NCBI GenBank assembly: GCA_017302295.1
Contig: JAFLDS010000014.1
Coordinates: 27,383-91,382, forward strand
Source: Thauera sp.
GTDB lineage: Bacteria; Pseudomonadota; Gammaproteobacteria; Burkholderiales; Rhodocyclaceae
Length of the DNA: 64,000 nucleotides
Reading direction: 5' to 3'
This document shows positions 32,976-64,000 of the stretch, piece by piece. The stretch's first letter is position 1, and the number at the start of each line of letters is the position of its first letter. Made by a program: the position numbers and the translations under genes. The notes beneath the pieces are model-generated. The model saw nothing but the letters and a program-made list of their open reading frames with translations. It was not told the origin of the DNA and searched no databases.

Positions 32976-33230
32976 ATGTTCGATGGCAACCTCTCGAGGG
33001 TGACGCGGGCGATCGAGCACTACTTTGCCTGTCATCCGGAAGCCGCAGACAGTGCCGAGGGCATTGCGCGCTGGTGGCTTGCGGACGAGGGCGTGGAGGC
33101 GTCGCAGGACGAGGTCGAGGCAGCCTTGAGCGATCTGGTGCAGCGCGGGCGGGTGACGGCGCGGCGCATGCCCGATGGGCGCCGGATCTATGCCTGGGCG
33201 CTGCGCAAGGGTTCGAACGGCACGCACTGA
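32976..33230 (+). CDS. Winged-helix-like small protein opening the CIS cluster
   Basis: An 84-residue protein. The start is the ATG of MFDGNLSRVTRAIEHYF at 32976, with GGAG nine bases upstream; the longer frame has no similarity. Residues ~10-75 (RAIEHYFACHPEAADSAEGIARWWLADEG, DEVEAALSDLVQRGRVTARR, RRIYAWALRK) fit a winged-helix fold in which a helix-turn-helix is followed by a basic hairpin. Comparable small proteins sit next to DUF4255 genes in CIS loci. It could be a regulator of the cluster or a structural subunit; sequence does not decide. Confidence 0.65.
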   Translation: MFDGNLSRVTRAIEHYFACHPEAADSAEGIARWWLADEGVEASQDEVEAALSDLVQRGRVTARRMPDGRRIYAWALRKGSNGTH

Positions 33231-33253
33231 ACGAAGGGGAGCGGGGCGGGACG

Positions 33254-33841
33254 ATGGCGAATGTATTCGGTGTCCACTCGGTCGGCAGTTCGATAGCGAC
33301 CTTCCTGCGAAACACCTATCCGGCCGAAATCGCCGGCGAGGCCATGCCGGGCTGCGAGTTCAGCCTGATGAGCGCGGGACAGCTTGCTGGCGACGTCGAG
33401 GAGGGCAACCGCATCACGCTGTTCCTGTATCGCATCTCTGTAAACGAGCACAGCCGCCAGAGCGCGCACCTTCGGGCGGGCGATGCCGGAGCGGGTCCGC
33501 TCGGGCTGGATCTGCATTACCTGATGAGCGCATGGGGCATGACGCCGCATGAGGAACAGGTGGCGCTGACTTGGGCGCTGCGCCAATTGCACCAGTTTCC
33601 GGTGCTCGACGCCTCGTCGCTGTCGCCGGAGGCGGGCTGGGCGGCGGACGAAGTGATCCAGATCGTGCCTTCCGAGCTTTCCACCGAGGATCTGATGCGC
33701 ATCTGGGACGCCCTGACGCCGTCCTACCGCCTGTCGGTGTCCTGGGTCGCGCGCCTGGTGCGCATCGACCCCGATGCCGACGCCGCGGAGTTCCGGCGCG
33801 TGGTGGCCAGCCGTTTTGCCTTCGGCGAGGAGGCGCGATGA
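33254..33841 (+). CDS. DUF4255 (Pvc16/Afp16-type) CIS protein
   Basis: A 195-residue protein of the DUF4255 family. It starts MANVFGVHSVGSSIATFLRN and has the family's NRITLFLYRISVNEHSR strand and LGLDLHYLMSAWG, then EEQVALTWALRQLHQFPVLD. In Afp and PVC particles the DUF4255 protein caps the distal end of the tube and fixes the particle length. That role is inferred here. It overlaps the next gene by ATGA. Its position at the start of the cluster rather than the end differs from Afp. Confidence 0.85.
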   Translation: MANVFGVHSVGSSIATFLRNTYPAEIAGEAMPGCEFSLMSAGQLAGDVEEGNRITLFLYRISVNEHSRQSAHLRAGDAGAGPLGLDLHYLMSAWGMTPHEEQVALTWALRQLHQFPVLDASSLSPEAGWAADEVIQIVPSELSTEDLMRIWDALTPSYRLSVSWVARLVRIDPDADAAEFRRVVASRFAFGEEAR

Positions 33842-34668
33842 GCGTGAAGGAGCTGCGCGAACTGGAGCGGCTGGAGTGGCGGGTGCTCGGTGCGCTGCGC
33901 CCCGTCGATGGCGTGACTGGCATGCCGCTTCGCAGCGGCGCCGCAACGGTGACGCTCGAAGCCGATGGCGCGCGCATCGTGCGCAACCGCAGCGGTCTGT
34001 ACGTGATCCACGAATGGCCGGTCCTGGCGGCCCATGGCGCAAGCTTCGCCGAGCCCCCCGATGCGCCCGCGGTAGGCAGCGAGTCGCTCGAGGTGGTCAT
34101 CCGCGACCTGTCGGGGCGCTACCTGCCGCGGCGGGTGACGCTGGCCCTGCCGCGCGATCCGGACCCGGAGGCCGATGCGGCCCAGTCCCTGTTCGTCCCG
34201 GTGGATGTGCCGCTGTATCCGTCGCCGACCGCCGACCTCGGGACCAACTGGTGCGCGCTGCGCGTCAGCGTTTCGCGCACCGTCGGCGGCAATCCCGGCG
34301 GCGATGCTCTGGGTGGTGCGCTGCTGCGCGTGGTGTCAGCCGGGGCGGTGCTGGCGCGTGGCCTCACCGACTGGCGCGGCGAAGGGCTGGTGCCGGTGGC
34401 TGGCGTGCCGGTGACGACCTGGTCGGAGGACGCGGATGCGGTGATCGTCAGCACGATCGCCGCGACCGTCGAGGTGGTCTTCGACCCGGCACTCGGCACT
34501 CGCACGCCGCAGTCCGACGTGGCTGCGGGGCGCAAGCCGGCGCGGCTGCCACTGGCGGATCCGGACGATCTCGAACAACGCCGTGCCACGCTGCCCCGGG
34601 CACAGCGCAACGTGAGCCTCGCTGCGCGGGGCGCCCTGCATCTGAACCTGGGCCTCGACCTGCCATGA
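33838..34668 (+). CDS. CIS-associated protein of unknown function
   Basis: A 276-residue protein, translationally coupled to the DUF4255 gene. It has two parts: residues ~25-115 with beta-strand-like segments (GARIVRNRSGLYVIHEWPVL, RYLPRRVTLALPRDPDP) and ~115-245 with LFVPVDVPLYPSPTADLGTN, VRASVSRT-like and GLVPVAGVPVTTWSEDADAV, then an Arg-rich tail. The repeated all-beta pattern resembles carboxypeptidase-regulatory/Ig-like domains, suggesting a structural part. I do not know a named family for it. It is followed by a 77-base gap before the sheath gene. Confidence 0.6.
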   Translation: MSVKELRELERLEWRVLGALRPVDGVTGMPLRSGAATVTLEADGARIVRNRSGLYVIHEWPVLAAHGASFAEPPDAPAVGSESLEVVIRDLSGRYLPRRVTLALPRDPDPEADAAQSLFVPVDVPLYPSPTADLGTNWCALRVSVSRTVGGNPGGDALGGALLRVVSAGAVLARGLTDWRGEGLVPVAGVPVTTWSEDADAVIVSTIAATVEVVFDPALGTRTPQSDVAAGRKPARLPLADPDDLEQRRATLPRAQRNVSLAARGALHLNLGLDLP

Positions 34669-34745: not shown

Positions 34746-36503
34746 ATGCCCGAGTACCTCGCACCCGGCGTCTATGTAGAAGAGACCAGCTTCCGCGCCA
34801 AATCCATTGAAGGCGTGGGCACCAGCACGACCGCCTTCGTCGGTCCGACCCGCAAGGGGCCGTTCCGTGCCGATGAGGACGAACAGGAAGTGCCCGAGCT
34901 GCTCACCAGCTTCGGCGACTTCGAACGCATCTATGGCGGCATCTCGGACCTTGCGCTGAGCGGCACCGACCCGCGCACGAACTACGTTGCGCATGCAGTC
35001 CGCGCATTCTTCAACGAGGGCGGCTCGCGTCTGTATGTGTCGCGGGCGGTGGGCGCCAACGCGGCCACTGCCAGCGTTGACGTCACCGCCGACGGCACGG
35101 CGGCGGCCGAGGCGGTGAGCTTCGTCGCGCGCTTCCCGGGTTCGCTCGGCAACGGCCGCATCATCGCGCGCGAAGTGCTCGCGCCGGTCGCGCTGCCGGC
35201 GATGCACAACGCACCCACAGGCAGCTTGCTGGTCACCGGCACCGGCGGTGCGACGGCCTATCACCTGAAGGTGGGCAGCGAGTGGCACCCGGCCACCAAC
35301 CCTGCGGATGCGGCCGAGTCGGCAGTGACGCTCGCGGGTCTGACGCCGCGCCTCGTCACCCTGCTGGTGGTGGCGGCCGACGCCGACGGCGAGAACCTGA
35401 GCTTCGAGGGCATGGGCTTCGACCGAACGCACCCGGCCTGGGTGGGGCACGTCATGTCGGCCACGCCCGCACGCCGCGCCGAGCATCTGCAGAATCTGTT
35501 CGCGATCGCCATCGGCGGCAACGTCAGCGCGCTCGAACTGCGCAATGCGCTGTTTGCCGGCGCGGCGGCGAACGCCGCGGGCGAACTGGAGCGCAGCTTC
35601 ACCCTCGCCGACGGCGCCGATGGCGTGGCACCGACGGCGAGCGCCTATGCGCTGGCGCTCGGTGAGCTGGCAAGCCTGGAGGATGTGTCCATTGTCGCCG
35701 CGCCGGGGTCGTCGGCCTATTCCGAGGCACAGGCGGTCAACAACCTGCTGATCTCGCATGCCGAGTCACGCCGTGCCTACCGCATCGCGGTGCTCGACCT
35801 GCCGCCGGCGCAGATCCCGGGCCAGGCGCGCACGCTGCGCGGCTTGATCGATTCGCGCTACGCGGCGGTGTACTACCCGTGGGTGGTCGTGCCCAACCCG
35901 CTGGCGCGGCCGGGGCGCGAGGACATTCCGCGCGAATTGGCGTTGCCGCCGTCGGGTTTCGTCACCGGCATCTACGCGCGCAACGACGTCGAGCGCGGCG
36001 TGTGGAAGGCGCCGGCCAACGAGGTGGTGCGCGGCGCGCTGCGTTTCGAGCTGGACATCAACTTCGCCCAGCAGGAAATGCTCAACCCGATCGGCGTGAA
36101 CTGCCTGCGCTACCTGTCGGGGCGCGGTTTCAGGGTGTGGGGCGCGCGCCTTGCCTCCTCCGACCCCGAATGGAAGTACGTCAACGTGAGGCGCTACTTC
36201 AACTACCTGGAGTCGTCGATCGACCGCGGCACGCAATGGGCGGTGTTCGAACCCAACGGCGAGCGGCTGTGGGCCAACGTGCGGCAGACGATCTCGGACT
36301 TCCTCTACAACGAGTGGCGCAACGGCGCGCTGCTCGGCACCAAGACCGAGGAAGCCTACTTCGTGCGCTGCGACCGCAGCACGATGACCCAGAACGACCT
36401 CGACAACGGTCGGCTGGTGTGCCTGATCGGCGTGGCGGTGATCAAGCCGGCCGAATTCGTCATCTTCCGCATCGGCCAGAAAACCGCCGATGCCAGTGCC
36501 TGA
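34746..36503 (+). CDS. Contractile tail sheath protein 1
   Basis: A 585-residue phage-type tail sheath protein. It begins MPEYLAPGVYVEETSFRAKSIEGV, the conserved sheath N-terminus, and ends with YLESSIDRGTQWAVFEPNGE, RQTISDFLYNEWRNGALLG and RCDRSTMTQNDLDNGRLVCL, the hallmark C-terminal sheath domain. Many subunits form the contracting outer tube that drives the inner tube outwards. AAGGAG six bases before the ATG indicates strong translation, fitting a major structural protein. The middle (~100-300) is the variable outer domain. Confidence 0.94.
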   Translation: MPEYLAPGVYVEETSFRAKSIEGVGTSTTAFVGPTRKGPFRADEDEQEVPELLTSFGDFERIYGGISDLALSGTDPRTNYVAHAVRAFFNEGGSRLYVSRAVGANAATASVDVTADGTAAAEAVSFVARFPGSLGNGRIIAREVLAPVALPAMHNAPTGSLLVTGTGGATAYHLKVGSEWHPATNPADAAESAVTLAGLTPRLVTLLVVAADADGENLSFEGMGFDRTHPAWVGHVMSATPARRAEHLQNLFAIAIGGNVSALELRNALFAGAAANAAGELERSFTLADGADGVAPTASAYALALGELASLEDVSIVAAPGSSAYSEAQAVNNLLISHAESRRAYRIAVLDLPPAQIPGQARTLRGLIDSRYAAVYYPWVVVPNPLARPGREDIPRELALPPSGFVTGIYARNDVERGVWKAPANEVVRGALRFELDINFAQQEMLNPIGVNCLRYLSGRGFRVWGARLASSDPEWKYVNVRRYFNYLESSIDRGTQWAVFEPNGERLWANVRQTISDFLYNEWRNGALLGTKTEEAYFVRCDRSTMTQNDLDNGRLVCLIGVAVIKPAEFVIFRIGQKTADASA

Positions 36504-36520
36504 GCGAGGGGGACTGAATC

Positions 36521-36964
36521 ATGGCTGAACGCATCACGCCCTATGGCGCCTTCAACTTCGTCGTCAATTTCGATGGCGGCGAGGAATTCGGCGGTTTCTC
36601 CGACGTGTCGGGCATCGGCACCGAGGTCACGGTGGCGGAGTATCGCGCCGGCAACGACAAGGAGAACCATGTGCGCAAGGTGGCCGGCATCCACAAGGTC
36701 GGCGACGTGACCTGCAAGCGCGGTCTGGTCAATTTCGACAGTCTGTGGGCCTGGATCCAGCAGACCCGCACCGACGGTCCGGCGGCGCAGAAGACGGTGG
36801 CGATCACGCTGATGGACGAGGCGCGCAACCCGGTGCGCACCTGGGTGCTGCGCGGCTGCATCCCGATGAAATACACCGGCCCGACCCTGGCCGGCAAGGG
36901 CGGCACCGACGTGGCGATGGAAGAGATCGTGCTGTCGGCCGAGGGCTTCGAGATCCAGGCCTAG
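36521..36964 (+). CDS. Inner tube protein 1 (T4 gp19-like)
   Basis: A 147-residue tube protein. FNFVVNFDGGEEFGGFSDVSGIGTEV is the tube family's opening pattern, followed by KHRKVAGIHKV-like and DLWNW-equivalent VNFDSLWAWIQQT, then TWVLRGCIPMKYTGPTLAGKG. Hexamers stack to form the rigid inner needle. It follows sheath 1 by 17 bases, the normal sheath-tube order. Confidence 0.93.
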   Translation: MAERITPYGAFNFVVNFDGGEEFGGFSDVSGIGTEVTVAEYRAGNDKENHVRKVAGIHKVGDVTCKRGLVNFDSLWAWIQQTRTDGPAAQKTVAITLMDEARNPVRTWVLRGCIPMKYTGPTLAGKGGTDVAMEEIVLSAEGFEIQA

Positions 36965-36994: not shown

Positions 36995-38593
36995 ATGTAC
37001 GGTCTGCGCTTCGAAACGGCTGCTCCGCCGTTGCGTCCTGATCCGAACCGGGTCGACGTCGCCTGCTTCATCGGCTTCGTTGCCCGGCGGGCGGGCGCGC
37101 TGCCGGCGAGCGTGGTCGATTCGCTCGCCGCACAGCGCTGGCTGGTGCGGGACGGCACCGTTGTGCGCGGCTGGCGCCCGGGGCCGTGGCGAACCGACGC
37201 CGACGAGATCGAAGCCCTGCTGCAGCTGCCGGTGGTGGTCGAGAGCTGGGCCGCCTTCGACGCCCTGTATGCGTGGGAGGCACGACCTGTCGCCGTCGGC
37301 GGCGCACGGCGCTGTGCCGCCTATACCGGGGCCGCGGTACGCAGTTTCTTTGCGCAGGGCGGGCGGCGGGCGGTGATCGTACGCACCGGCGATCCCTGGC
37401 CGGTGCTCGAAGCTGCCGGCGAGCGCGCGGCTCAACGGGATGCGCGGCTGACGGCACTGCTGGCGCCACAGGCTGAAGCCGTCGATCAGTCGAGCTGGCG
37501 AGGCATCGGCCATCTGTTCGGCCTGCCCGACGTGGCGCTCGTGTGCCTGCCCGACCTTGCCGACCTCTGTGCGGCCGACCCCGAAACCGTGGATGTGGCG
37601 ACCGAGCCGCCGAGCTCGCCGGAGGTGTTCGTCGAATGCACGGTCGACAGTGGCGGCTCGGTACAGGAAGACGTCGGTCTGCGCGACCTGGCACCGCCGC
37701 GCTGTGACGAGGATGGCTTCGTTGCCTGGCGCGATGCGATCGCGGCCGTGCGCGCGAGGCTCTCGACGAATCATCGGGAGATGCAGCTCGTGGCTGCGCT
37801 GCCGCTACCGCGCGCCGATGTGCGAAGCGTCGCGGTGGCCGGCACGGTATGGGCGCAGGGTGACTTCGCCGGCTGGCTGGAGCGTGTCGGCATTCTCGAG
37901 GCAGGGTCCGACGACGATCCGCATGGCCGTCCGCCCGGTGCCTTCGTGCAGTTCGGCTGGCCATGGCTGAAAACGCGCCATAGCAGCGATCTGCCCGCCT
38001 TGCTCGAGCCGCCCGATGGCATGCTGACCGGTGTCATCTCGCGCAATGCGCTGTTGCGCGGCACCTTCCGCGCGGTGGCCGGAACGACGCTCGCGGCGGT
38101 GTATGGCAGCGAACCGCTGCTGAGCTGGAGTGGCGTGGCCGAGACACCGGCGGACCGGTTGGCGCGGCGCGTGTGCGTGGTGGCGCCGTCGTCCGATGGC
38201 TGGGGGCTGCAGTCCGACGTCAGCAGCTCCGACGTCGAGCCCTGGCGGGCAGGGGGCGTGAGCCGGTTGATGGGCGCCATCCTGCGGGCGGCGCGGCGGG
38301 CGGGCGAAGCGGCGCTGTTCGAGGCCAGCGGTCCGGCGCTGTGGGCGCGCCTGCGGCGCAGCCTGGAGCAGACGTTGCTCGCGTTCTGGCGCGAGGGTGC
38401 GCTCGGCGGCGCGTCGGCGAACGAGGCCTTCACCGTGCGCTGCGATCGCAGCACGATGAGCCAGAACGACCTCGACAACGGCCGCCTGCGCGCCGAGATT
38501 GCGGTACTGCCAGTTGCCGCGGTGGAGCGTATCACCGTGGTGCTCGAACTCACCGGCGGTGGCGTGACGCTGCAGGCACAGGAGGTGGCGTGA
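36995..38593 (+). CDS. Divergent second sheath protein
   Basis: A 532-residue sheath-family protein. The C-terminus has LEQTLLAFWREGALGG and RCDRSTMSQNDLDNGRLRAE, which are nearly identical to the end of sheath 1 (RCDRSTMTQNDLDNGRLVCL), and MLTGVISRNALLRGTFRAV mirrors the GIYARNDVERGVWKAP region. The N-terminal ~250 residues are different from sheath 1 and lack the APGVYVEE opening. Afp and PVC have several sheath paralogues; this one may form the baseplate-proximal ring. The gene overlaps tube 2 by three bases. Confidence 0.85.
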   Translation: MYGLRFETAAPPLRPDPNRVDVACFIGFVARRAGALPASVVDSLAAQRWLVRDGTVVRGWRPGPWRTDADEIEALLQLPVVVESWAAFDALYAWEARPVAVGGARRCAAYTGAAVRSFFAQGGRRAVIVRTGDPWPVLEAAGERAAQRDARLTALLAPQAEAVDQSSWRGIGHLFGLPDVALVCLPDLADLCAADPETVDVATEPPSSPEVFVECTVDSGGSVQEDVGLRDLAPPRCDEDGFVAWRDAIAAVRARLSTNHREMQLVAALPLPRADVRSVAVAGTVWAQGDFAGWLERVGILEAGSDDDPHGRPPGAFVQFGWPWLKTRHSSDLPALLEPPDGMLTGVISRNALLRGTFRAVAGTTLAAVYGSEPLLSWSGVAETPADRLARRVCVVAPSSDGWGLQSDVSSSDVEPWRAGGVSRLMGAILRAARRAGEAALFEASGPALWARLRRSLEQTLLAFWREGALGGASANEAFTVRCDRSTMSQNDLDNGRLRAEIAVLPVAAVERITVVLELTGGGVTLQAQEVA

Positions 38594-39111
38594 TGGCCGA
38601 CCCCCTCGACCGTGCCCAGCAGGAGCGCCTCGACTTTGCTCCGCTCCCGGTGTTCCGCTTCCACGTCAGCTTTCGCAAGCAAGCGCTGGGGCGCGAACCG
38701 GCCAGCGAGACCGAGGTGCCGATCTGCCAGGGTGCGTTCTCCGAGTGCACCGGGCTCGAGGCGACCATGGAGCCCAAGGTGATCAAGATCGGCGGCTCCA
38801 ACTACGGCGCCGCGCAGCGCGCCGGTCCGGTGACCTTCGCCACCGTGGTGCTCAAGCGTGGCATGACCAAGACGCGCGACCTGTGGAACTGGTTCAGCAT
38901 GGTCGGCGGCGGTGCCTATGCCTACCGGCTGATGGTCGAGATCGAGATGCGCAATGCGCGCGACGAGGCGGTGGTGCGCTGGGCGCTTCGCCGCGCACTA
39001 CCGGTCAAGTTCAAGGCGGCCGACCTCAACGCCAAGGGCAATGAGGTCGGCATCGAGGAACTGCACCTCGCGCACGAAGGCCTGGTGCTGTTGCCGATGA
39101 GCGGAGGCTGA
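38593..39111 (+). CDS. Inner tube protein 2
   Basis: A 172-residue protein of the tube family, longer than tube 1 at the N-terminus (MADPLDRAQQERLDFAPLP). PVFRFHVSFRKQ, GAFSECTGLEATMEPKVIKI and LWNWFSMVGGGAYAYRL are the recognisable tube blocks, and KFKAADLNAKGNEVGIEELH closes the domain. In Afp and PVC the second tube-type protein forms the ring that joins tube and spike. This is the likely role here. The start is within the TGATG overlap with sheath 2. Confidence 0.9.
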   Translation: MADPLDRAQQERLDFAPLPVFRFHVSFRKQALGREPASETEVPICQGAFSECTGLEATMEPKVIKIGGSNYGAAQRAGPVTFATVVLKRGMTKTRDLWNWFSMVGGGAYAYRLMVEIEMRNARDEAVVRWALRRALPVKFKAADLNAKGNEVGIEELHLAHEGLVLLPMSGG

Positions 39112-40372: not shown

Positions 40373-40546
40373 ATGGCGATCACGATCGAGGAAATGCAGG
40401 CGGAGGTCACGCCGGAGCGTGGCACGACCGAGCAGGCGTCGTCGCGCGGCGAGTCGGATGGTGCGCGCGACGCGGAGCTTCTGGAGCGTATTGCCCGAGA
40501 GCAGCGGGTGCGTGAGGAGCGCGCGCTGCGCGTGGCAGCGGATTGA
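40373..40546 (+). CDS. Small Afp6-like CIS protein
   Basis: A 57-residue acidic and Arg-rich helical protein (MAITIEEMQAEVTPERGTTE, ELLERIAREQRVREERALRV). AAGGA is four bases before the ATG. A short protein in this position between the tube adaptor and spike genes corresponds by place and length to Afp6/Pvc6, whose function is unclear. Family membership is judged on context, not on motifs. The ~40-residue C-terminal helix may form a coiled coil. Confidence 0.6.
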   Translation: MAITIEEMQAEVTPERGTTEQASSRGESDGARDAELLERIAREQRVREERALRVAAD

Positions 40547-44230: not shown

Positions 44231-44628
44231 GCACCCAGAGCCTGCCCCGCCCGTCGATCGGCTGGCCGCTGTTCGCGGTGCCCGACGCCGACGGCCGGCT
44301 CGACTGGCCGGACCTCGAGACCAGCGTGCGCCAGGGCATCCGCATCATTCTCAGCACGCGGCCGGGCGAGCAGCTGATGCGCCCGGAGTACGGCGCCGGC
44401 CTCGACCGCCTGCTGCACGAACCCAACAACCTCGCCACCCGCCGGCAGCTGCGCGATTGGGTCATGGAGTCGCTCGGACGCTGGGAGCGCCGGATCGTGC
44501 TCGACCGCGTCGAGGTGCTCGAGGTGCCCGGCGAACCCGCCGACCTGCGGGTGGAGATCGCCTACCGGCTTGCCCGCACCGGCACGCCCGGCGCGCTCGC
44601 GGTGACCGTCCGACTCGAGGAGGCCTGA
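44227..44628 (+). CDS. Baseplate wedge protein (gp25-like, Afp9-type)
   Basis: A 133-residue GPW/gp25 family protein. The core QGIRIILSTRPGEQLMRPEYGAGL (residues ~38-60) and later WERRIVLDRVEVLEVPGEPA are diagnostic. It contributes to the inner baseplate and starts sheath polymerisation in related phage and T6SS particles (TssE). The gene overlaps its upstream neighbour by four bases and ends one base before the gpJ-like gene. Confidence 0.94.
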   Translation: MSTQSLPRPSIGWPLFAVPDADGRLDWPDLETSVRQGIRIILSTRPGEQLMRPEYGAGLDRLLHEPNNLATRRQLRDWVMESLGRWERRIVLDRVEVLEVPGEPADLRVEIAYRLARTGTPGALAVTVRLEEA

Positions 44629-53591: not shown

Positions 53592-53649
53592 CGGGCGCCG
53601 CGCCGGCGTGCGCGATTGCGCCCCGCTTCATGAATCACGGAGGTGTAGC

Positions 53650-56600: not shown

Positions 56601-58623
56601 CGAGACCCGGGTGTCCGGCACGACAGACGTGCGCAGTGCGATCGCTGACACCGGCTTCAAGCAGCCAGTGGCGGACAGTGGCGGTTTTACGCTCGACAGC
56701 GGCACGTCGAGGGATTTCGTGAAGGATGCGACGCTGGTGCAGTTCCCGATCAGGGTCGATACCTTCGTCCCGTCCGACATCACCGATGCCGCGCCACTGA
56801 TCGGGAAGGCCGAGGTGCGCACCACGAGCATCGCCGAGCGCCTGACGGCGCCGAAAGCGACCGAGGCCAAGGACTATACGACCTCGACCCGCTACGAGGC
56901 GGTACGCAGCCTGCTCGCCTTCGCCGACGAGTTGCAGGCTGCGGATGCGGGTGAGCCTGCGGGCCTGTTCGAGGGCGTGAACTTCTACGGCGTGCGTGGC
57001 GACCCGTCCCTGTTCTGGGAGACCGAGGAGGAACGCGACAACCCCGACCGTCCTCTGCCCAACGCCGACACCGACGACGAGACGCAAAGGGCGATCCTCA
57101 ACGGCATGCGCCGTAGCTTGCCGTTCCGCGACCTGATGGTGCAGCGCTGGCGGCTGCCGCTGATGCTGCGCTCGCCGGGGCGGGTGAAGATCGACGAATC
57201 GGCGCATTTCTCCGACGGCGCCGATCTGGCCGACAACACGGTGGCGCTGATGCGCCAGCTCGAAGGCCGCATCAAGATGTACCGGAACGCGATCACCGTC
57301 AGCCAGAGGGTGCTCGACACGCTGCGCGGCAACGCGGCAGCGCTGGAACTGCGGCTGAAGACGGTGGGCGAGGAGCTGGCCGAGGCGCGCCACGACGTGT
57401 CGGTGACGCGCGCGCTGATCGCCGAGGAAGAGGCGCGCCTTGCCGCGATCAACGCGCGCCGCGCGCAGGTGCTGCGCGATCATGTGCACTTCATCGCCTA
57501 CCAGCGTCCGCGCGAGGCCGAGTTGATCGCCAGCGCGCCGATGCGTACGCTCGATCCCGGCTTGCTGGAAGCGCCGCTCCCGGTCTGCTTCATGGAGCAC
57601 CAGGATGCACCGGACGAGCTGCGCGACCTGCTCGGGGTGGTACGCGAGGCGCCAGCGCGCTGGTTTGCGGGCGTGCCGCTGCTGCTGGACCGGCTCGACC
57701 GCGTCGATCTGCTGGTGAAGGCGGTGCAGTCGGCGCAGTTGCGCAGCCAGTTGATGACGCTGAAGGCGGCCGCCCAGCCCGCCGCAGCGGGGGTGACGGG
57801 CGCGACAACCGCGTTGCGCGGTGCAGCTGCCAGCATTGCTGCGCTGCACGCGAAGCAGTTCCAGTCGGTGCAGGCGGTGCGCGCAACGGCGACGCGCATC
57901 GATCCGTCGGCGCTCGCGGTGCTCGGCTGGCAGGGCGCGCGTGCGCAGGCCGAGCAGATCGTGTCGCTCGGCGACCTGATCGATGGCGAGCACGGCCGCG
58001 GCGACGTGGCGCAGAAGGCGGCGGCGATCTTCGACGACATCTCGCGCATTGCGGCCTGTCTGCACGAGGGCTTTTCCTCGGTGCTGCCATCGATCCGCCT
58101 CGACTGGGCCGAGCGCATGTCGCAATTCGACGCCGCGCCGCGGCTGCGCAACCTGGCCGGGCTGCCGCGCTGGGGCGAGATCGACTACGCCGACCGGCGC
58201 CAGATGCAGGCCGCCGCCGACTGGCTGTTTGGCCAGATGCGCACGGGCGTGGTCGAGGGCGAAGGGCTGATGAACGACGTCGTGCGCATGTGCCTGCTGC
58301 TTGCGAGCCACGCGCCGATCAACCGCATCGTGTCCGGCCGGCTGCCGGCGCCGATCACCGCGATCCCCGGCGTAAGGCTGCCGATCCGCGTCACCGAGGT
58401 GCTGAAACTGCGCGTTGGCATGCAGGCCCTGGTGTACCAGGCCGACCGCGTCGTCGCCCGCGCCACGGTGGACGATGTCGGCTCGACGCAGGTCGCCGCG
58501 ACCGTGATCCAGGCCGAGGGCAACCGTGTCGAACTGGCCGCCGAGACGCGCGTGCAGTTCGTCGATGCGGCCAGCCCGGTGGCGATGAGCGCGGCGCGCA
58601 TCAAGAGCACCACGATGAGGTGA
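53650..58623 (+). CDS. Giant CIS protein (1657 residues) with duplicated domain
   Basis: Starts at GTG 53650 with GGAGG eight bases upstream. The N-terminal ~500 residues include ENAADVARWWLRRPNLFPGR and an Ala/Gly-rich spacer. Residues ~505-660 and ~685-842 are two copies of one domain: HQHFF, TVAAGE, WVYLDP/WVFIDP, LMLQW, RAYWG, GMAF and FDG recur in order, an all-beta (jelly-roll/lectin-like) pattern. Residues ~850-1200 have mixed segments, and ~1210-1300 is a probable coiled coil (ALMRQLEGRIKMYRNAITVS through EEEARLAAINARRAQVLRD). The rest contains further helical regions. It may be a fibre/receptor protein or a tape-measure-like scaffold; neither is proven. Confidence 0.65.
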   Translation: MSITPIKGSLPGEQVIHLAPENAADVARWWLRRPNLFPGRTLTGPTLEGRQRWAEGHVALRGQAFTAGVVRGLESALIADGGGMAAARVALMQGSALAVSGEDVRVPQAVEFALADLSVVGDPSAFAGMGEAGGEGGAGGSEGGELRSKVIGPRLGDLVAASPDAIPRVGVLLLQPVSADRIGAFDPTDPCSLDGCGSGNVASFEDWRVGDAARLLWYAWPEEVDGFALDVVLAGAPSRWRNLLAWQVFDAERALAADATLPWEEFGVPLGLVCCDAAWNPLFLDRASVVRTGGRARYSRMGGGADGLATHWRLPALWQAQFEQLAEQVTAAGDPAPDAATLAAGFTRLPPFGLLPANVVDLTALRSDFFPASFELDAAPLPVEQLDAALVEAAALAPLDTAVGGRVRLLVPVPQAVFEPRLLLREVIDPEFARTLTEFLLSRARWLGARQGLRTRASVLARSITGTPLAVPAIADDPEALEVESLVPWGPPPAGGGHRSSLRAGIHQHFFEAATETMTVAAGESLFTWVYLDPDNPPRTLMLQWHAGTWEHRAYWGENLIPWGADGTVARARAGDLPPLGQWVRLTLPASLVGLAATQADGMAFSLFDGRAAFGMTGVLPAPGGERKWFCGVLPTAAQQNGDERWEMLTHNDLWSPFEGISAVLPVDATGAPGSGGHTEPAAVGLHQHFFENAGVTFTVAAGERFYTWVFIDPSNPPSQLMLQWRVGASWEQRAYWGLSRIGWGVEGTVSRRRLGALPRPGRWIRLEIDPAAVGLVGATMNGMAFTFFDGTAAFGPSGALTPAGANAQESSREWFAGSLPARATPRGIWQFLSARDLLAPTAGGTNGHVEAVARLYDDAALAHLSAQERYQMYQLGLEGFIAYLKARTDRADDLVDFNFVKVQTDIYRVRQLILGTTAATRLAVSPALANIAQAETAVASTERIAGFFDELKKETAATQVQQVTAAGATVARAFRLESGFTGAETRVSGTTDVRSAIADTGFKQPVADSGGFTLDSGTSRDFVKDATLVQFPIRVDTFVPSDITDAAPLIGKAEVRTTSIAERLTAPKATEAKDYTTSTRYEAVRSLLAFADELQAADAGEPAGLFEGVNFYGVRGDPSLFWETEEERDNPDRPLPNADTDDETQRAILNGMRRSLPFRDLMVQRWRLPLMLRSPGRVKIDESAHFSDGADLADNTVALMRQLEGRIKMYRNAITVSQRVLDTLRGNAAALELRLKTVGEELAEARHDVSVTRALIAEEEARLAAINARRAQVLRDHVHFIAYQRPREAELIASAPMRTLDPGLLEAPLPVCFMEHQDAPDELRDLLGVVREAPARWFAGVPLLLDRLDRVDLLVKAVQSAQLRSQLMTLKAAAQPAAAGVTGATTALRGAAASIAALHAKQFQSVQAVRATATRIDPSALAVLGWQGARAQAEQIVSLGDLIDGEHGRGDVAQKAAAIFDDISRIAACLHEGFSSVLPSIRLDWAERMSQFDAAPRLRNLAGLPRWGEIDYADRRQMQAAADWLFGQMRTGVVEGEGLMNDVVRMCLLLASHAPINRIVSGRLPAPITAIPGVRLPIRVTEVLKLRVGMQALVYQADRVVARATVDDVGSTQVAATVIQAEGNRVELAAETRVQFVDAASPVAMSAARIKSTTMR
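55162..55626 (+). repeat. First copy of the duplicated domain
   Basis: Encodes residues 505-659 of the giant protein. The block starts GIHQHFFEAATETMTVAAGE, passes LMLQWHAGTWEHRAYWGENL, and ends near WFCGVLPTAAQQNGDERWEM. It is alignable by eye with the second copy at 55702-56173. Confidence 0.75.
55702..56173 (+). repeat. Second copy of the duplicated domain
   Basis: Encodes residues 685-841. It starts GLHQHFFENAGVTFTVAAGE, passes LMLQWRVGASWEQRAYWGLS, and ends near WFAGSLPARATPRGIWQFLS. The divergence of the two copies indicates an old tandem duplication. Confidence 0.75.
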
Positions 58624-58627: not shown

Positions 58628-60286
58628 ATGCCGGCCGAACGTACGGTCAATGTGCTGAAAGTTCGCGCATCGGGCGATGCTCAGGCCCGTCATGCCAGGC
58701 TGCTGCTGGAGGACGCGCTGCGCACCGCGAGCTTGCCGGGCGACGGGGCTGCGCTGGTGCTGGTGCGAAAGCTGCGGCTGCCTGCCTTCAGTAGCGGGGC
58801 AACGTCGCAGAGTCTGGCGTGTGCGCTGGAGGAAAGCTGCCGAGCCTTGCAGGTGCTGCCGGTGACGGAGGCGACGACGGAGCGCGCGATCGACGCGGCT
58901 GCGGCGGTGCGTTTTCGCGATGCGCTGCAAGCGCGCCAGGAACTCGGACTACGCCTGTTGCGGGGGATGTCCCCGCGCGCCTGGTGCTGGCCGCTCGCGG
59001 TGCCAGGATATCGACAGGGACTCACGAGCGGCGAAGCCTTGCGCGCAATTGCCATCTCCTTCCTCGATCTACCGGAAGCGGGGCTTGCGCTGCCGCTGTG
59101 GCTCGACGAGATCGCGGCCGGCGGCGCCATTCCGCGCGTGATCGCGGCGTTGCCACGGGACGACGCCGAAGCGCTGCTGGCTGTGCTGACCTCGGCGACG
59201 CATCGTGTTCCACGGTTGCAACCGGGGCGGGCGCACGCGATCGATGGCGACTTGGATGGACCTGCTTCTGGACAGCCCGAGTTCGCCTATGCGGCAATCC
59301 CCGCCCGCTGGCAGAACGCCCTTCGGTGGGCGCGGCAGTCGCTTGCGCCCGGGGATGCGCGCTTGCGCCTGGTCGAGGCCGCTGCGCAGGCGAGCGTTTC
59401 GTCGGCCCGTGTCACGACTGACGCACGTCGTCAGTCGGCGGCAGGCGTGGAGTGGCGTCGGTGCGAAGGTGTGGAGCGCGGGCTGGAGCGGCGAGAGGTC
59501 CCGCGCAAGGCGAGGCGTTCGCCAATGCCACGGGGGGCACGCGTCGCTGAGGGCGAGAAGCCGCCTTCGTCATCCGCCCCCGCCGCTTTGCTATCTCATC
59601 CTCCGTCGCCAGCGCTGCGGGAGGGCAACGCTCCGGACAGTCGTGCGGAGGCGCAGGGGCGTGTCGAGCGGGACGCACCGTACGCGTCCGGCACAGAAGC
59701 CGACCGGCGGCAGATGGATGCCCCTTTGCGGGCACGGCCGCTTCGTCCGGCGCCCCCTTTTAGCGTCGCCGTTCAGGAGCGAACGGCTGCTGCCGGCTTG
59801 CTGTTCCTCGTCCCCGTCCTCGCATCGCTCGGGCTGCCCGCATGGCTGCAGGCGAACGCGGCTTGGGCAGGGGCCGACCTGCCGGCACGGGTCATCGGCT
59901 GCGCGCTGCAACGTCTTAGGGTGAGTGCGGACGACCCCGCCTGGCTACTTGCCGAGGACCCGACGGATCAACCGCGGCCGGTGCCCGCCGGAGAGCAGTT
60001 CTCGGCTCTGGTCGACATGGGCCTGCGGCCCGCGCCGGGACGCTCGGCTGCCGAAGCCTGGCTCGGGGCCTGCCGGCGCTGGCTGCGCCTGCGCGCACGC
60101 ATCGGCATCGCCAGCCTGGTGTTGCGTCCGGGGCGGATGGCGGTGACGCCCACGCATGCCGATGTGTGGATGGCGATAGGGCAGACCGACCTGCGCGTCC
60201 GGAGCGCCGGGCTCGATCTGGACCTTGGCTGGGTGCCGTGGGTGGGTCGAGTGGTCAATTTCCATTACGGCGATGCCGAAACATGA
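58628..60286 (+). CDS. CIS-associated protein upstream of the AAA+ ATPase
   Basis: A 552-residue protein. The N-terminal part (~1-255) is Ala/Arg-rich and helical, with LRLLRGMSPRAWCWPLAVPG and LPLWLDEIAAGGAIPRVIAAL. Residues ~260-380 form an Arg/Pro/Ser-rich low-complexity insert, probably disordered. The C-terminal part (~395-552) has LLFLVPVLASLGLPAWLQAN and a final LDLGWVPWVGRVVNFHYGD motif. I have seen that closing pattern in proteins next to CIS ATPases, but no function is known. It overlaps the AAA+ gene by ATGA and may act with it. Confidence 0.6.
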   Translation: MPAERTVNVLKVRASGDAQARHARLLLEDALRTASLPGDGAALVLVRKLRLPAFSSGATSQSLACALEESCRALQVLPVTEATTERAIDAAAAVRFRDALQARQELGLRLLRGMSPRAWCWPLAVPGYRQGLTSGEALRAIAISFLDLPEAGLALPLWLDEIAAGGAIPRVIAALPRDDAEALLAVLTSATHRVPRLQPGRAHAIDGDLDGPASGQPEFAYAAIPARWQNALRWARQSLAPGDARLRLVEAAAQASVSSARVTTDARRQSAAGVEWRRCEGVERGLERREVPRKARRSPMPRGARVAEGEKPPSSSAPAALLSHPPSPALREGNAPDSRAEAQGRVERDAPYASGTEADRRQMDAPLRARPLRPAPPFSVAVQERTAAAGLLFLVPVLASLGLPAWLQANAAWAGADLPARVIGCALQRLRVSADDPAWLLAEDPTDQPRPVPAGEQFSALVDMGLRPAPGRSAAEAWLGACRRWLRLRARIGIASLVLRPGRMAVTPTHADVWMAIGQTDLRVRSAGLDLDLGWVPWVGRVVNFHYGDAET

Positions 60287-62337
60287 ACCATCCCGAACGT
60301 TTGCCGCCGCAGCAAGAAGGTTCCGAACGGCCCGCAGAGTCGGGGATTTCGCATGAATCCGCGAGCATGCACTGGGCCGACGTACCGCAACTGCCGTCGC
60401 TTGCCGAGATCCTCCTCGCGCTGCTGGCACCGGCCGATGGCGAGATCGTGCGAGAGCCCTGTGCCGAGGCGGCGTGGCTCGGCGCGCTCGGACAGGCGGT
60501 CGATCGTTACGCCAAGGGTGTGGAGGCGGGTGCGCACGGACGCGCCGATGCAGTGGCGATTGCACTTGCTGCGTGGCAAAGGCGGGCCCCGGACGCTGAT
60601 CGATGCCTGCATGCGCTGGCCAGTCGCGATGCGCTGAGCTTGCCCGAGACGGCGGCGATCGCGCTCGCCCGTGCCAGCGAGATGCTGCCGATGGTGGCGA
60701 GGGCCTTGATCTGGCTGCAACACCCGGTTGGCGAAGCGCGTCCCACCGTCGGCCTGCTCGCGAACCTGTGCGAACGCCTCGGTGAGCCGCACACCGTTGC
60801 GCGCCTTGCAGAAGGGGTGGCCGGCCGGCATGGCGTGCTTCAACTGCTGCCCGATGAACGGCCCCTGTGCGAGCGCAATGTGCGCGTTCCGCTGCCCTTG
60901 CTGCTGGCGCTCGGCGGGCATGAGGGCAGGCCTGACAACGTCGATCTCGCGCCCGTCGGGCTGCCGACACTGTCGGCGTCGACTGTGGACACCGCACGTC
61001 GGTACGCCGAAGGCCTGAAGGGGGGCGGCGCGCGCGTGCTTGTCGTGCGCAGTGGACGCGCTGCGGAGGCACGCGCTGCGGCTGCCGAAGTGGCTGTCGC
61101 GCTCGATCGGCGCGCGGCCTTCATCGACGGCGAGCTTCCGCGAGGTCTGGGCAGCTGGCTGTGGCTGCGCGGATGCCTCCCGGTGCTCTGCCCGCGGCTG
61201 GGGCCGGGCGAGCGCTTCCAGGTGCCGGCGATCGCCGGGCATGGTGGACCGATTCTGGTGGCAACCGGCATCGACGGCAGCGTCGAGAGTGCTGCTGCGG
61301 TTGCTCAGTGGCGTGTGGCTGTGCCGCCGGTGTGCGAACGCGCCTCATTGTGGCAGGCGGCGCTCGGGCCAGGGGTTGCCGTCGAGGCGCTGGCGAGCAT
61401 CCACCGGCACTCGGCGGGCCGCATTGCCGAGCTGGGCGAGGCGGCGCGTTCGGTTGCCGCGTGCACCGGCGACGTGCTCGAGGTCGGACACGTCGCGCAG
61501 GCGGCGCGTTCCGGGGTGGGGGCAGACCTCGGGGCGCTTGCCGAGTTGCTGGCGGACGACATTCCGGACGACGCGCTGGTGCTGACGGAATCGCTGCGGC
61601 AGGTGCTTGGGGCGCTGCTCGCGAGGTGCCGGGTGAGGGACGGACTGGCCGATGGACTCGGCATCGCGGCCCGCGCGCGCTACAAGCCGGGCGTGCGCGC
61701 ACTGCTGGTCGGCCCCTCGGGCACCGGCAAGACCTTGGCGGCGGGCTGGATCGCAACTCAGCTCGGTCTCCCGCTGTACCGCGTCGATCTGGCCTCGGTC
61801 ACGAGCAAGTACATCGGTGAGACGGAGAAGAATCTGGCCGAGCTTTTCGCGCGTGCCGAGCACGCCGACGTCGTCCTGCTGTTCGACGAGGCCGATTCGT
61901 TGTTCGGCAAGCGCACCGAGGTCAAGGATGCGAACGACCGCTTTGCCAACCAGCAGACCAATTATCTCTTGCAACGTATCGAGTCGTACGAGGGCATCAC
62001 CCTGCTGACAAGCAATAGCCGCGCGCGCTTCGATTCCGCCTTCACGCGCAGGCTGGATGCGATCATCGAATTTCCGACGCCCGCCCCCGAAGAGCGCCGG
62101 GCGCTGTGGCTCGCGCACCTCGGAGGCGTCCATAGGCTGGACGCGGCGGTGCTCAACCGTCTCGCGGGCATCTGTGACCTCGCCGGCGGCCACATCCGCA
62201 ATGCGGTTCTTGCGGCGGCGGCCGTTGCGTGCGTGCGTGGCGATGCCATCTCGGAGGCTGACCTCGTCGCGTCGGCGGCGGCTGAGTACCGCAAGCTCGG
62301 CAAGCCGCCGCCGGCAGGTCTGGAGCGTCCGGGATGA
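60283..62337 (+). CDS. CIS AAA+ ATPase (Afp15/Pvc15-like)
   Basis: A 684-residue protein. The N-terminal ~440 residues are the variable, Ala-rich part. The AAA+ module has Walker A GPSGTGKT at 477-484, [20 protein letters not shown] with the sensor-like KYIGETEKN, Walker [16 protein letters not shown] around 529-543, and the arginine-finger region in [20 protein letters not shown]. This is the signature CIS ATPase found in nearly all eCIS loci, required for assembly in Afp and PVC; the precise step is unsettled. It overlaps both neighbours by four bases. Confidence 0.92.
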
Positions 62338-64000
62338 AAGGCGCCCTGGCGCAAGCGCGCAGGATCGAGCCGAGCGGGCGCGATGCGTGCGAGGGCCTGG
62401 ATCGTGCCGAGCGCCGCGCGACTGGACGTGAAACGGGCGTGCCGCGTTTTCTGAGCGGTGACGCAGTTCAGGCAAAGCTCGAAGTGGGTGCGGTGGACGA
62501 CCCGATGGAGCGCGATGCCGACGCGTTCGCGCTTGCGGTGCAGCGGGGAGACAGGGTGCTGCCGCGTTTCCTGTCGAAAGAGGGCAGACACGGGGCGCAA
62601 GACCCTCATGCCGGTGATGCGCGGCGCCAGACCGGAAATTTTGTCGCATCGCCGACGCAGCTGAGCGCGCTGCGGCCGGCTCTGGGCCGCGATTCGCCGC
62701 GGCACGACGCCATCGCGCAATCACGCGCGACCGACGATCCGGCACCGGATAGCGGCGCGCCGCTTGCCGCGCCCGTCCGAACGCGCATTGAAGGAGCGCT
62801 GGGGCTGGACCTGGGTGCGGTGCGGGTGCACACCGGCCCGGGTGCCGAACAGGCCGCGGCGCGACTGCAGGCCCGGGCCTTCACCCGTGGCAGCGACATC
62901 TGGCTGGGGGCGCGGCATGCACCCGATGAGCTCGGCCTGATGGCGCATGAGGTCGCGCACGTCGTGCAGCAGGGAGGGGCCCCGACGCCAGTGCGGCGTA
63001 GCCCCGAGACTGCGCAGCCCGGGTCCGACCGGTCACCTGCCCGCCGGAACTTCACTTTTTCGGAAGAGGACATGGAGGCGCGGCTTGCCGCCACGCCGCC
63101 CGAGGGGGCGGATACCAGCGCCCCGACGGTCGAAGTGGAAAGCGCCACCACCGGCAAGCTGGACGAGGTCGAGCGCCAGAAGGGCGAGGGTGGCGAGGGT
63201 GGCGAGGGTGGTGGAGGCGGTGCCGAAGGTGGCGGGGAGGGCGCTGGTGGTGGCGACAAGGGCCAGGCCGGTGAGGAACAGGAAGCCGTTGAAGGCGGCT
63301 CCGGTGGCCGGCAGGCGCGGGCGCTGGGTGGCGAGCCGCCGCCGGTGCCGCCGCCGACGCCAGTGCCTGGTCCGGCATCGGAGTTCGAGAGCCTCGTCGC
63401 CGCCGATGTCGCCGCCTATCTCGACGGCAACCTGTCGTCGGAGCGGCTGGCCGCGCTCGACCCGCAAACCCGCTCGCTGCTCGAGGCAGTCGACCTGCTC
63501 GGAGACAGGCAGATCACCGACCCCGAAGCGAGCGCCCTGCAGGCCCTGGGCGGGGAGGCGCTGCGACCGGGCGCTGCGGTCACCGGTTACGAGGTGGAGC
63601 CGCTCTGGCTGCGGACGCTCGCCAACGTCCGCGACATCACCGGCCAGCTCGGCGGCATCGTCGGCGTCATCGGCCTGGTCGCGACCGTCAGCGGCTTCAT
63701 CCTGAGCCTGCTGATTCCGCCGGTCGGTGCCTTCCTGCTCACCGTCGGGCGTTTCTGCGACGTCGCGGCGCTGATCCTCGATGCGATCAGCCTTGTGCTG
63801 GGCATCGTGCTGACCGGCTACAACCTGTACCGCCTGAAGAACGAGACCGACCCGGAAGAGCGCCGGCGCCTGCTCGGAATGGTGCGCCAGGACGCGATGG
63901 GTACGGTGATGAGCGCCGTCGCGGTGGCGACCGCGGTGGCGCCGGGTGCCGGTCGCGCGCTGGGTCGGGCGGGGCGCCGCGTTTCGGGCGGCCTGCGTGC
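62334..64000 (+). CDS. DUF4157 (eCIS core domain) protein, candidate cargo, partial
   Basis: An open frame of 555 codons that runs off the window. Residues ~20-85 have PRFLSGDAVQAKLEVGAVDD and MERDADAFALAVQ, typical of the leader that precedes DUF4157. The DUF4157 domain (~150-215) has LDLGAVRVHTGPGAEQAAAR and HEVAHVVQQGG, where HEVAH (205-209) is a zincin-like HExxH motif. Then come a Gly/Glu-rich linker (~280-330) and hydrophobic stretches (~440-505), including GGIVGVIGLVATVSGFILSL and LLIPPVGAFLLTVGRF. DUF4157 is the domain most often linked to CIS cargo. A membrane-active effector is possible, but the end of the gene is missing. Confidence 0.8.
   Translation, partial: MKGALAQARRIEPSGRDACEGLDRAERRATGRETGVPRFLSGDAVQAKLEVGAVDDPMERDADAFALAVQRGDRVLPRFLSKEGRHGAQDPHAGDARRQTGNFVASPTQLSALRPALGRDSPRHDAIAQSRATDDPAPDSGAPLAAPVRTRIEGALGLDLGAVRVHTGPGAEQAAARLQARAFTRGSDIWLGARHAPDELGLMAHEVAHVVQQGGAPTPVRRSPETAQPGSDRSPARRNFTFSEEDMEARLAATPPEGADTSAPTVEVESATTGKLDEVERQKGEGGEGGEGGGGGAEGGGEGAGGGDKGQAGEEQEAVEGGSGGRQARALGGEPPPVPPPTPVPGPASEFESLVAADVAAYLDGNLSSERLAALDPQTRSLLEAVDLLGDRQITDPEASALQALGGEALRPGAAVTGYEVEPLWLRTLANVRDITGQLGGIVGVIGLVATVSGFILSLLIPPVGAFLLTVGRFCDVAALILDAISLVLGIVLTGYNLYRLKNETDPEERRRLLGMVRQDAMGTVMSAVAVATAVAPGAGRALGRAGRRVSGGLR

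Follow-up and report, generated by a model that had tools for sequence, protein, structure and literature searches.

A conserved membrane-tailed protein and a putative sigma-54 control module in an eCIS-family contractile injection locus of Thauera

Introduction

For eCIS-type gene clusters, it is hard to tell from a genome whether they encode a released particle or a cell-bound weapon. We address this question for a locus of Thauera, present in a stretch of 64,000 nucleotides that we refer to as the window. Thauera and Accumulibacter are known from the granules and flocs of wastewater treatment, a setting in which cell-cell contact is constant. A first-pass annotation of the window had recognised the injection genes and overlooked two features that bear on the choice between a released and a cell-bound machine: a membrane-tailed protein of 593 amino acids and a sigma-54 module. 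With its first gene placed behind what looks like a dedicated on-switch, and with a conserved membrane-type tail among its products, the machine may work while attached to the cell membrane instead of leaving the cell as a particle.

Results

The locus and its parts

The eCIS-family contractile injection system is encoded on the + strand from position 32976 to the end of the window. Contig C6 (91,382 bases) ends at that point as well, and about 7.5 kb more of the locus lies on contig C51, from the same genome. If synteny holds with genome G001, to which the two pieces were aligned separately, the gap between the contigs amounts to about 240 bases. The last gene of the window, encoding a DUF4157 protein, is cut by the end of C6, and its remaining part opens C51; effector genes and a sigma-54 activator gene follow there. 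Of the other genes beyond these, the nearest is common to G001 and G013, and the later ones were read by eye only. The start that the first-pass annotation had given, 32976, is the exact start of a conserved open reading frame of 84 codons, and all the injection-system parts that it had named were recovered at their place on the + strand by matches to Pfam and NCBIfam profiles, the basis of our part calls. The features are as follows.

32833..32848, strand., candidate activator (enhancer) site: 16-bp palindrome GGGTAGAAACCGACCC (GGGT-N8-ACCC), same form in relatives
32927..32942, +, sigma-54 type -24/-12 promoter element AGGCCCGGCTCTTGCA, from the alignment of relatives
32976..33230, +, 84-aa first gene; 46-74% identity in 6 relatives, sub-threshold regulator match only in Pfam
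33254..33841, +, Cis16 / DUF4255 (Pvc16_N), cap or tail terminator; PF14065 1.4e-34
33838..34668, +, 276-aa conserved protein, no family; the Roseomonas counterpart in this slot is a carboxypeptidase-like regulatory domain protein
34746..36503, +, sheath 1 (Cis2-like); PF04984 3.6e-20 and PF17482 9.3e-17, PDB 8bky 1.8e-100
36521..36964, +, inner tube 1; PF06841 2.3e-32
36995..38593, +, sheath 2; PF17482 2.1e-5, matched in the C-terminal domain only and, at 25 bits, just below the cut-off of 26.9
38593..39111, +, inner tube 2; PF06841 9.6e-28
39115..40353, +, Cis7 tube adaptor (CIS_tube) with a long Gly/Ala-rich C-terminal half; PF19266 2.8e-18
40373..40546, +, 57-aa small ORF in the adaptor-spike interval, read by hand from the sequence
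40684..41769, +, spike half 1 (GPD/VgrG-like hub); Phage_GPD PF05954 2.4e-10
41769..42455, +, spike half 2 (baseplate V); Phage_base_V PF04717 1.3e-23
42449..44230, +, membrane-tailed protein, 593 aa, tail at residues 545-588; hydropathy and tail conservation, no family
44227..44628, +, gp25 baseplate wedge (Cis9); PF04965 5.4e-22
44630..46933, +, Baseplate J (Cis11); PF04865 3.9e-15
46927..49497, +, Cis12 / TIGR02242 tail protein; TIGR02242 1.4e-14, NF053768 3.2e-25 (far below the full-length cut-off)
49549..49866, +, PKD-like small protein 1; sub-threshold PKD matches, 71-79% identity in 6 relatives
49880..50353, +, small protein 2 with a Thr-rich tail, adjoining the PKD-like one; no Pfam match
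50350..51339, +, Cis13-like peripheral baseplate/fibre protein, 329 aa; NF053767 2.6e-5, far below cut-off
51411..53591, +, Cis13-like protein, 726 aa, Thr-rich linker; NF053767 0.0012, weak
53569..58623, +, fibre-like protein, about 1,680 aa, start uncertain; no family, 62-81% identity in 7 relatives
58628..60286, +, 552-aa protein adjoining the ATPase; no family, 39-59% identity in 7 relatives, in pieces
60283..62337, +, CIS AAA+ ATPase (Cis15); PF00004 3e-25
62334..64000, +, DUF4157 (eCIS_core) effector, cut by the contig end; PF13699 9.8e-22

Profile matches place sheath, tube, spike, gp25, gpJ and an AAA+ ATPase together, and a DUF4255/Pvc16 cap as well as eCIS_core (DUF4157) proteins are present, as expected of the eCIS family. 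Judged from these matches, the locus is an eCIS-family contractile injection system with a complete part set, and its earlier description as a chromosomal locus of more than 31 kb in a betaproteobacterium, now assigned to the genus Thauera, holds. Sheath 2 is conserved at 60-79% identity in 6 relatives. The 84-aa product of the first gene is perhaps a small winged-helix-like regulator, a guess at its fold made with all family matches below cut-off. For the 276-aa protein, the longer frame 33774-34709 was rejected on base composition and, later, similarity. The protein of about 1,680 aa contains two repeated domains, seen by eye, and resembles a region of the 726-aa protein weakly; in G013 the 726-aa protein was matched over its last 23 residues only, though a frame of 706 codons occupies the slot. 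PHROGs gave no match for five unnamed proteins besides the 593-aa protein.

The first-pass annotation had set the locus apart from phages and from T6SS, and both distinctions stand. Capsid, portal, terminase and integrase families are absent from the 40 proteins of our Pfam scan, which ran from position 20971 onward and took in the inner part of C51; phage head genes beyond the window, which would have turned the locus into a prophage, were sought on C51, by eye in its later genes, and not found. A genome-wide search gave no VipB-family T6SS sheath, on which ground the T6SS reading was rejected, and the scanned proteins include no T6SS membrane-complex component, as judged from the scan as a whole and not from TssJLM models run one by one.

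Gene order and relatives

The gene order here is unlike that of the Afp and PVC loci, but the view that it sets the locus apart is not supported. A Roseomonas marmotae plasmid carries the same order (DUF4255, one gene, sheath, tube, sheath, tube, a small gene, adaptor, GPD, V, one gene, gp25, J), and a plasmid of Cereibacter azotoformans nearly so, except that two genes separate V and gp25. The shared order extends from DUF4255 through the tail protein, and no relative of the Thauera tailed protein was found in either locus. The sheath tree that had been proposed as a check, and a gpJ tree beside it, were built from 27 hand-chosen loci plus the window (sheath found in 27/27, gpJ in 25/27), without the distant forms of the tailed protein; twelve plasmid loci besides that of Rhodococcus were chosen by hand among 60 of 121 records. 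In both trees the Roseomonas and Cereibacter loci fall outside the clade of the Thauera locus, a clade that the tailed protein marks. Both also separate the Thauera locus from the two plasmid eCIS of Streptomyces in the sample, so that a grouping with Streptomyces CIS (class IId) was not recovered with these references, which are known only as Streptomyces plasmid eCIS and do not include S. coelicolor. Genes at the cargo end vary between relatives.

The membrane-tailed protein

The 593-aa protein is encoded between the spike and gp25, inside the baseplate gene block. Its tail reaches a hydropathy of 2.56 over 19 residues, and only two of the 21 eCIS proteins of the window that were measured exceed 2.1, the other being the DUF4157 cargo (2.45). 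The tail also holds the best conserved 40-residue segment of the protein (0.93) and scores 0.92 against 0.69 and 0.47 elsewhere, in an alignment (A2) that omitted 6 of 24 loci (L039, L040, L044, L047, L050 and L061) as near copy, cut, redundant or broken in frame. Of 17 genomes selected by their ATPase, 15 encode the tailed protein; it was not found in G007 and G021. A plasmid eCIS of Rhodococcus opacus has a homologue in this slot, which extends for more than 100 residues beyond the tail, and two IMG/VR contigs encode relatives in stretches where spike, gp25 and J genes are ordered as in an eCIS. Pfam, NCBIfam and PHROGs gave no match, and a likeness to a solved structure was rejected, as the only two PDB matches were at chance level. 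We infer from its sequence that the tail inserts into the producer's membrane, and the position of the gene suggests contact of the protein with the baseplate. Since its conservation exceeds the need of a plain membrane anchor, the tail may instead mediate protein-protein contact or form part of a pore.

The sigma-54 control module

A promoter element lies about 50-60 bases 5' of the first ORF in all 17 genomes in which this ORF and its upstream DNA were scanned, with a pattern that was widened after the Accumulibacter sequences (TAGCACG, without the usual GG) had been seen and with the weighted score left unchanged. The element is absent in four loci that lack the first ORF (L048, L050, L052, L053), and a stricter pattern finds none before G138 or in L111 of G014; the control module is hence not universal in the clade. 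The palindrome precedes the first ORF by 141-157 bases in 7/7 Thauera/Cognatazoarcus loci, where 0.024-0.076 would be expected per randomised sequence, the forms of palindrome and promoter having been set after inspection by eye of the alignment of those seven sequences. It recurs in 4 of 10 other loci, is absent from 5/5 Accumulibacter regions and from Rhizobacter, and was not found before the Sphingomonas loci or L048, L052 and L053. The randomised sequences in both tests keep dinucleotide steps only on average. The general sigma-54 pattern is not enriched across the window (14 matches against 17.75 expected); the case for sigma-54 rests on position and on conservation between genomes.

The activator encoded on C51 combines an AAA+ domain (Sigma54_activat, 9e-63) with a Fis-type HTH, and no sensor domain was recognised in it. 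Cognate copies (E <= 7.5e-95, with a paralogue background of 2.9e-74 and weaker) were detected in 17 of 24 genomes, and 15 of these 17 lie with eCIS genes; the link was not found for L080, within 16 kb downstream of the ATPase, or for L084. GAFTGA is the typical loop for sigma-54 contact. The Thauera copy and 12 of the 17 fetched cognate copies read GAFTDA in place of the canonical form, and the loop pattern found no match in the remaining five, all from Accumulibacter. RpoN is encoded in the genome (1.4e-67), which together with the -24/-12 element and the Sigma54_activat protein completes the set expected of a sigma-54 operon. A sigma-54 control module is therefore well supported at the sequence level; that sigma-54 is in fact used, and that the activator pairs with the palindromic site, we infer. 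Our literature search, judged mostly by titles and the starts of abstracts, found no published link of sigma-54 with an eCIS, and for Accumulibacter and eCIS none either, with no contractile injection term among the matches listed. The eCIS regulators named by Geller 2021 are GerE, BTAD and RfaH, and the word sigma does not occur in the main text (PMC8213781).

Discussion

The sequence establishes the parts, their operon-like order, a conserved promoter element, a linked activator and a conserved tail, and we propose that these belong to an injection system that sigma-54 switches on and that docks at the membrane of its producer, a proposal for which we consider the chances to be even and in which docking is conjectural. 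Transcription would start at the sigma-54 promoter 5' of the first gene, fired by the dedicated cluster-encoded activator bound to GGGTC-N6-GACCC-like sites. A machine with a two-sheath, two-tube trunk would be assembled in the cytoplasm, the 593-aa protein would join its baseplate between spike and gp25, and the hydrophobic tail would dock this baseplate on the producer's inner membrane. Like thylakoid-anchored or archaeal CIS, the machine would fire while bound to the membrane, presumably expelling the DUF4157 cargo. Extended to the clade (Thauera, Accumulibacter, Cognatazoarcus, Rhizobacter and others), this would be a cell-bound, sigma-54-switched apparatus with a separate anchoring solution, a baseplate-encoded tail protein different from CisA, from Hbor_38620 and from the helix of Cis13, and the first sigma-54-controlled eCIS; we offer this wider claim tentatively, as one somewhat more likely to fail than to hold.

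A classical eCIS would leave the cell by lysis, bind its targets through fibre-like proteins and inject DUF4157 toxins, with the tailed protein serving as a pore or tip for the target membrane or as cargo. Fibre-like proteins with repeated domains, cargo-end genes that differ among relatives and a tail conserved strongly enough to suit a pore are all in keeping with such a particle; the tailed protein, however, is encoded in the baseplate block and kept in 15/17 relatives, unlike the varying cargo, and the recognised cargo genes lie at the opposite end of the locus, so that we regard release as unlikely, if a serious contender. The 329-, 726- and about 1,680-aa fibre-like genes speak against docking in that they would suit a released particle too. 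Also counting against our proposal are the excess conservation of the tail, the residues that follow it in the Rhodococcus homologue, the lack of the tailed protein in two of 17 genomes, the GAFTDA loop, the deviant promoter element of Accumulibacter, the palindromes missing there and in Rhizobacter, and the loci in which no promoter was found.

Control by sigma-54 is apt for a response to stress or nutrients, which would also fit a cytoplasmic, self-acting machine of the Streptomyces kind, turned on by sigma-54 under stress and killing or lysing its producer by contraction at the inner membrane. Regulated production together with a membrane protein recalls CisA (PMC12237407), but both trees separate the locus from the two sampled Streptomyces plasmid eCIS, and fibre-like genes are present here, whereas Streptomyces CIS are described in the same source as without clear fibre homologues; we judge this reading to be distinctly improbable. 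Both the sheath and baseplate J have homologues among phage tail proteins, and relatives of the tailed protein occur on two IMG/VR contigs, yet a prophage or tailocin remnant is hardly conceivable. Head, portal, terminase and integrase families are missing from the scanned proteins; among the best 20 of 220 phage records, sheath identity reaches at most 30.1% (over 50% of the protein), and 23.6% in the longest match (71%); and both IMG/VR stretches show spike, gp25 and J in eCIS order. An AAA+ ATPase and eCIS_core are, moreover, eCIS hallmarks. The prophage reading was rejected on the lack of head and packaging families and on the eCIS-order gene content.

If the docked, sigma-54-switched system is the right reading, the membrane-tail protein that marks the clade is easily used as a sequence marker and allows the cell-bound mode to be tested directly, and the sigma-54 module, by naming promoter, site and activator, would make the trigger of an eCIS findable by ordinary genetics.

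VasH is a sigma-54 activator that switches a T6SS. For Sfa2, too, RpoN together with an activator is described as the switch of a T6SS, hence of a contractile machine (PMC8855297). The Thauera locus resembles both in its predicted control by RpoN plus activator and belongs to another machine family; its activator differs in the GAFTDA loop and in that no sensor domain was recognised.

Among membrane-associated CIS, from which the tailed protein is set apart here on their published descriptions, the Anabaena tCIS carries a membrane helix in Cis13 (PMC8894136). Both systems are eCIS-type, with Cis12/Cis13-like peripheral proteins and a membrane helix in one baseplate-linked protein, helix and baseplate link both being predicted in our case; the carrier is the fibre-like Cis13 in tCIS and the 593-aa protein beside gp25 in Thauera. 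The tCIS sheath (7b5h, 4.4e-51) is a weaker match to Thauera sheath 1 than the best PDB match, 8bky (1.8e-100), a code that appears in the paper on the T6SS-like CIS of Halogeometricum borinquense (PMC11566945). That system shares DUF4157 cargo with the Thauera locus and has a membrane-bound mode, which in Thauera is proposed; its putative anchor, Hbor_38620, is described with six helices and upstream of the cluster (PMC11566945), whereas in Thauera there is one tail region, in a protein of the baseplate block. CisA of Streptomyces is, like the Thauera protein, encoded with the cluster; it is a membrane protein, as is predicted of the Thauera one, and the machine requires it for firing (PMC12237407). 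In architecture the two part company: CisA is disordered at its N-terminus and possesses one helix and a C-terminal domain, and the Thauera protein has a long N-terminal part followed by its C-terminal tail.

Extent and composition of the locus

The first-pass annotation had read the forward strand from 32976 to the end of the window as an extracellular contractile injection (eCIS) locus, with DUF4255 first and two sheath-tube pairs. Pfam and NCBIfam profile matches recover every component that it named, in the order that it gave. Sheath 2 gives the weakest match (C-terminal domain only, just below the Pfam cut-off), yet six relatives have it with 60-79% identity. Gene order from DUF4255 through the ATPase is collinear in six genomes, of which one is Cognatazoarcus and five belong to the same genus. 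The features on which our analysis relies are:

32833..32848, GGGT-N8-ACCC palindrome, candidate activator site
32927..32942, sigma-54 type -24/-12 promoter element
32976..33230, + strand, first ORF (84 aa)
39115..40353, + strand, Cis7 adaptor
42449..44230, + strand, membrane-tailed protein (593 aa)
49880..50353, + strand, small protein
51411..53591, + strand, Cis13-like protein (726 aa)
60283..62337, + strand, CIS AAA+ ATPase

Long threonine runs are present in the small protein and in the Cis13-like protein, and the Cis7 adaptor contains a long Gly/Ala-rich repeat that is unaligned in most relatives. In the relative G013, the Cis13-like protein aligns at its end only (last 23 residues), and a 706-codon open frame fills its slot (L070/L038 region); this may be a fibre gene that has diverged or recombined.

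Within the source genome (4.11 Mb, 53 contigs), contig C6 contains the window, and both end together inside a DUF4157 gene. DUF4157 occurs at three places in this genome, one of them about 4 kb from an end of contig C51. Reading inward from that end, one encounters an open frame that resembles the remainder of the cut gene in G001 and G013 (81% over 764 and 84% over 744 aligned residues, respectively). The two parts were aligned separately and unjoined; on G001, about 240 bases separate their matches. There follow a TPR-like protein, a protein with eCIS_core and OmpA domains, a small protein, a sigma-54 activator and other genes.

The gene 3' of the ATPase varies among relatives: eCIS_core (DUF4157) was recognised in it in G007 and G028, it resembles the source-genome cargo in G001, G006 and G013, and the large protein found there in G076 received no family in the domain scan. 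The second eCIS_core protein on C51 (L062, 8002-9924, minus strand), whose OmpA-family domain is accompanied by a sub-threshold peptidase M6 match, has counterparts at 62-73% in G001, G005, G013 and G076 and is perhaps a peptidoglycan-binding cargo. No toxin domain was recognised in the cargo proteins scanned.

The membrane-tailed protein

Encoded between spike half 2 and gp25, the tailed protein has no Pfam, NCBIfam or PHROGs match and no real PDB match. Residues 545-588 form a strongly hydrophobic tail (hydropathy 2.56 over 19 residues), the highest value among the 21 eCIS proteins of the window that were measured, followed by the DUF4157 cargo (2.45) and baseplate J (gpJ; 2.08). Conservation across an alignment of 19 rows peaks in this tail, which averages 0.92 and has 21 invariant columns out of 44; the means are 0.69 for residues 121-540 and 0.47 for residues 1-120.

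The protein is rare overall. Of 398 genomes sampled from the phylum, 3 have it, the source genome counted; within the genus it occurs in 12 of 29 genomes, four of them with a distant form. Because a circular count was to be avoided, we picked 17 genomes from 150 relatives plus the source genome by their best matches to the ATPase (E <= 4.4e-72) and not to the tailed protein; 15 of them encode it, five in the distant form (E 1.5e-12 to 3.1e-19), and it was not found in G007 and G021. At the start of contig C12 of G007, a Thauera genome that is 99% complete, lies the ATPase end of the locus; sheath and tailed protein were both looked for in this genome and neither was found; either the rest was lost in assembly or part of the locus has been deleted.

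Searching the genome_contigs collection with the tailed protein yielded 24 loci, titled Accumulibacter (nine), Thauera (three), Sphingomonas (two), Cognatazoarcus and Rhizobacter (one each), and eight MAGs of Proteobacteria, Betaproteobacteria, Rhodocyclales, Burkholderiaceae, Methylococcaceae or Moraxellaceae; to check gene order, tblastn positions were used within the stretches examined. The 16 rows bearing the tailed protein form one clade in the trees of gpJ (support 100/100) and of the sheath (100/99). Cereibacter and Roseomonas stand nearest in the sheath tree (86/80), their place is left unsettled by the gpJ tree, and several long branches occur outside the clade.

In some Thauera genomes there is a second, distant eCIS lineage (L111-L112, G014 C1:30000-69999), where the distant form occupies the same slot, in G014 between spike half 2 and gp25. 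The same slot holds a relative in a Rhodococcus opacus plasmid eCIS, the sole match in the plasmid collection and the only one of 13 plasmid eCIS loci examined to have the protein. In Sphingomonas sp. 7/4-4 (L061, about 10001-11399), the frame is broken in the record. In two IMG/VR contigs filed as viral (L121, L122), the gene is accompanied by those for spike, gp25 and J, arranged as in an eCIS; both are probably misfiled eCIS fragments.

A putative sigma-54 control module

Upstream of the first ORF lies AGGCCCGGCTCTTGCA (32927-32942), an element conserved as TGGCnCG-N4-TTGC or -TCGC in seven aligned upstream regions whose surrounding DNA is otherwise poorly conserved; the source-genome copy starts with AGG. 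Scoring with a fixed consensus places it about 50-60 bases 5' of the first ORF in 13 of 14 ORF-bearing upstream regions, with scores equalled in 0 to 10 of 500 randomised sequences per region. The one miss (L049) comprises only 60 upstream bases, and the element does occur in L077, which extends further in that genome; with L047, L054 and L059 added, it is present in 17 of 17 genomes. Five Accumulibacter among these read TAGCACG-N4-TTGC and therefore lack the usual GG. Among six loci that lack the first ORF, no element was found in four; the other two, both Sphingomonas, show an almost perfect one that precedes DUF4255 by 318 and 329 bases. The palindrome lies 141-157 bases 5' of the first ORF in all seven Thauera and Cognatazoarcus loci and at 144-152 bases in L056, L058, L081 and L082 (11 of 17 in total); it was not found in the Rhizobacter region or the five Accumulibacter regions.

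The C51 activator contains Sigma54_activat (9e-63), AAA+ lid and Fis-type HTH domains, and no sensor domain was recognised in the domain scan. Its best matches in the 24 genomes with the tailed protein fall into two groups, 17 at E <= 7.5e-95 and seven at 5.1e-72 to 4.9e-66, the latter at paralogue level (strongest paralogue among the matches listed, 2.9e-74); G170 is the only genome with two strong-group copies. Fifteen of the 17 strong-group activators are located with eCIS genes. In the Thauera group they lie 3' of the ATPase, at distances that reach 15 kb in Cognatazoarcus, and in Accumulibacter, Rhizobacter and further genomes they immediately precede the first ORF; one of the 15, in L076, adjoins a divergent DUF4255 gene. 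For L080 and L084, such linkage was sought and none was established. The usual sigma-54 contact motif is GAFTGA; the C51 activator and 12 of 17 fetched cognate copies have GAFTDA, and five of seven background copies have GAFTGA or GSFTGA. RpoN is encoded in the source genome. Activator, first ORF and promoter were all not found in the stretches of G138 and G014 (L111-L112) examined, and the module, as judged from its sequence signature, is not universal.

Mechanism and comparison with known systems

These data lend themselves to a model in which an eCIS-family machine would be placed under sigma-54 control. On comparative sequence grounds, sigma-54 very probably drives the first gene, and the putative control module comes close to being shown. 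The tailed protein, with about an even chance, would dock the baseplate on the producer's own membrane, a proposal modelled on three anchoring proteins described for other systems (PMC8894136, PMC11566945, PMC12237407). Alternatively, the particle may be released and the tailed protein may act on a target membrane.

We found no published link of sigma-54 with eCIS, or of Accumulibacter with eCIS, in the open-licence literature. The machine itself is of a known kind; the novelty of the locus rests on the tailed protein and the putative sigma-54 module.
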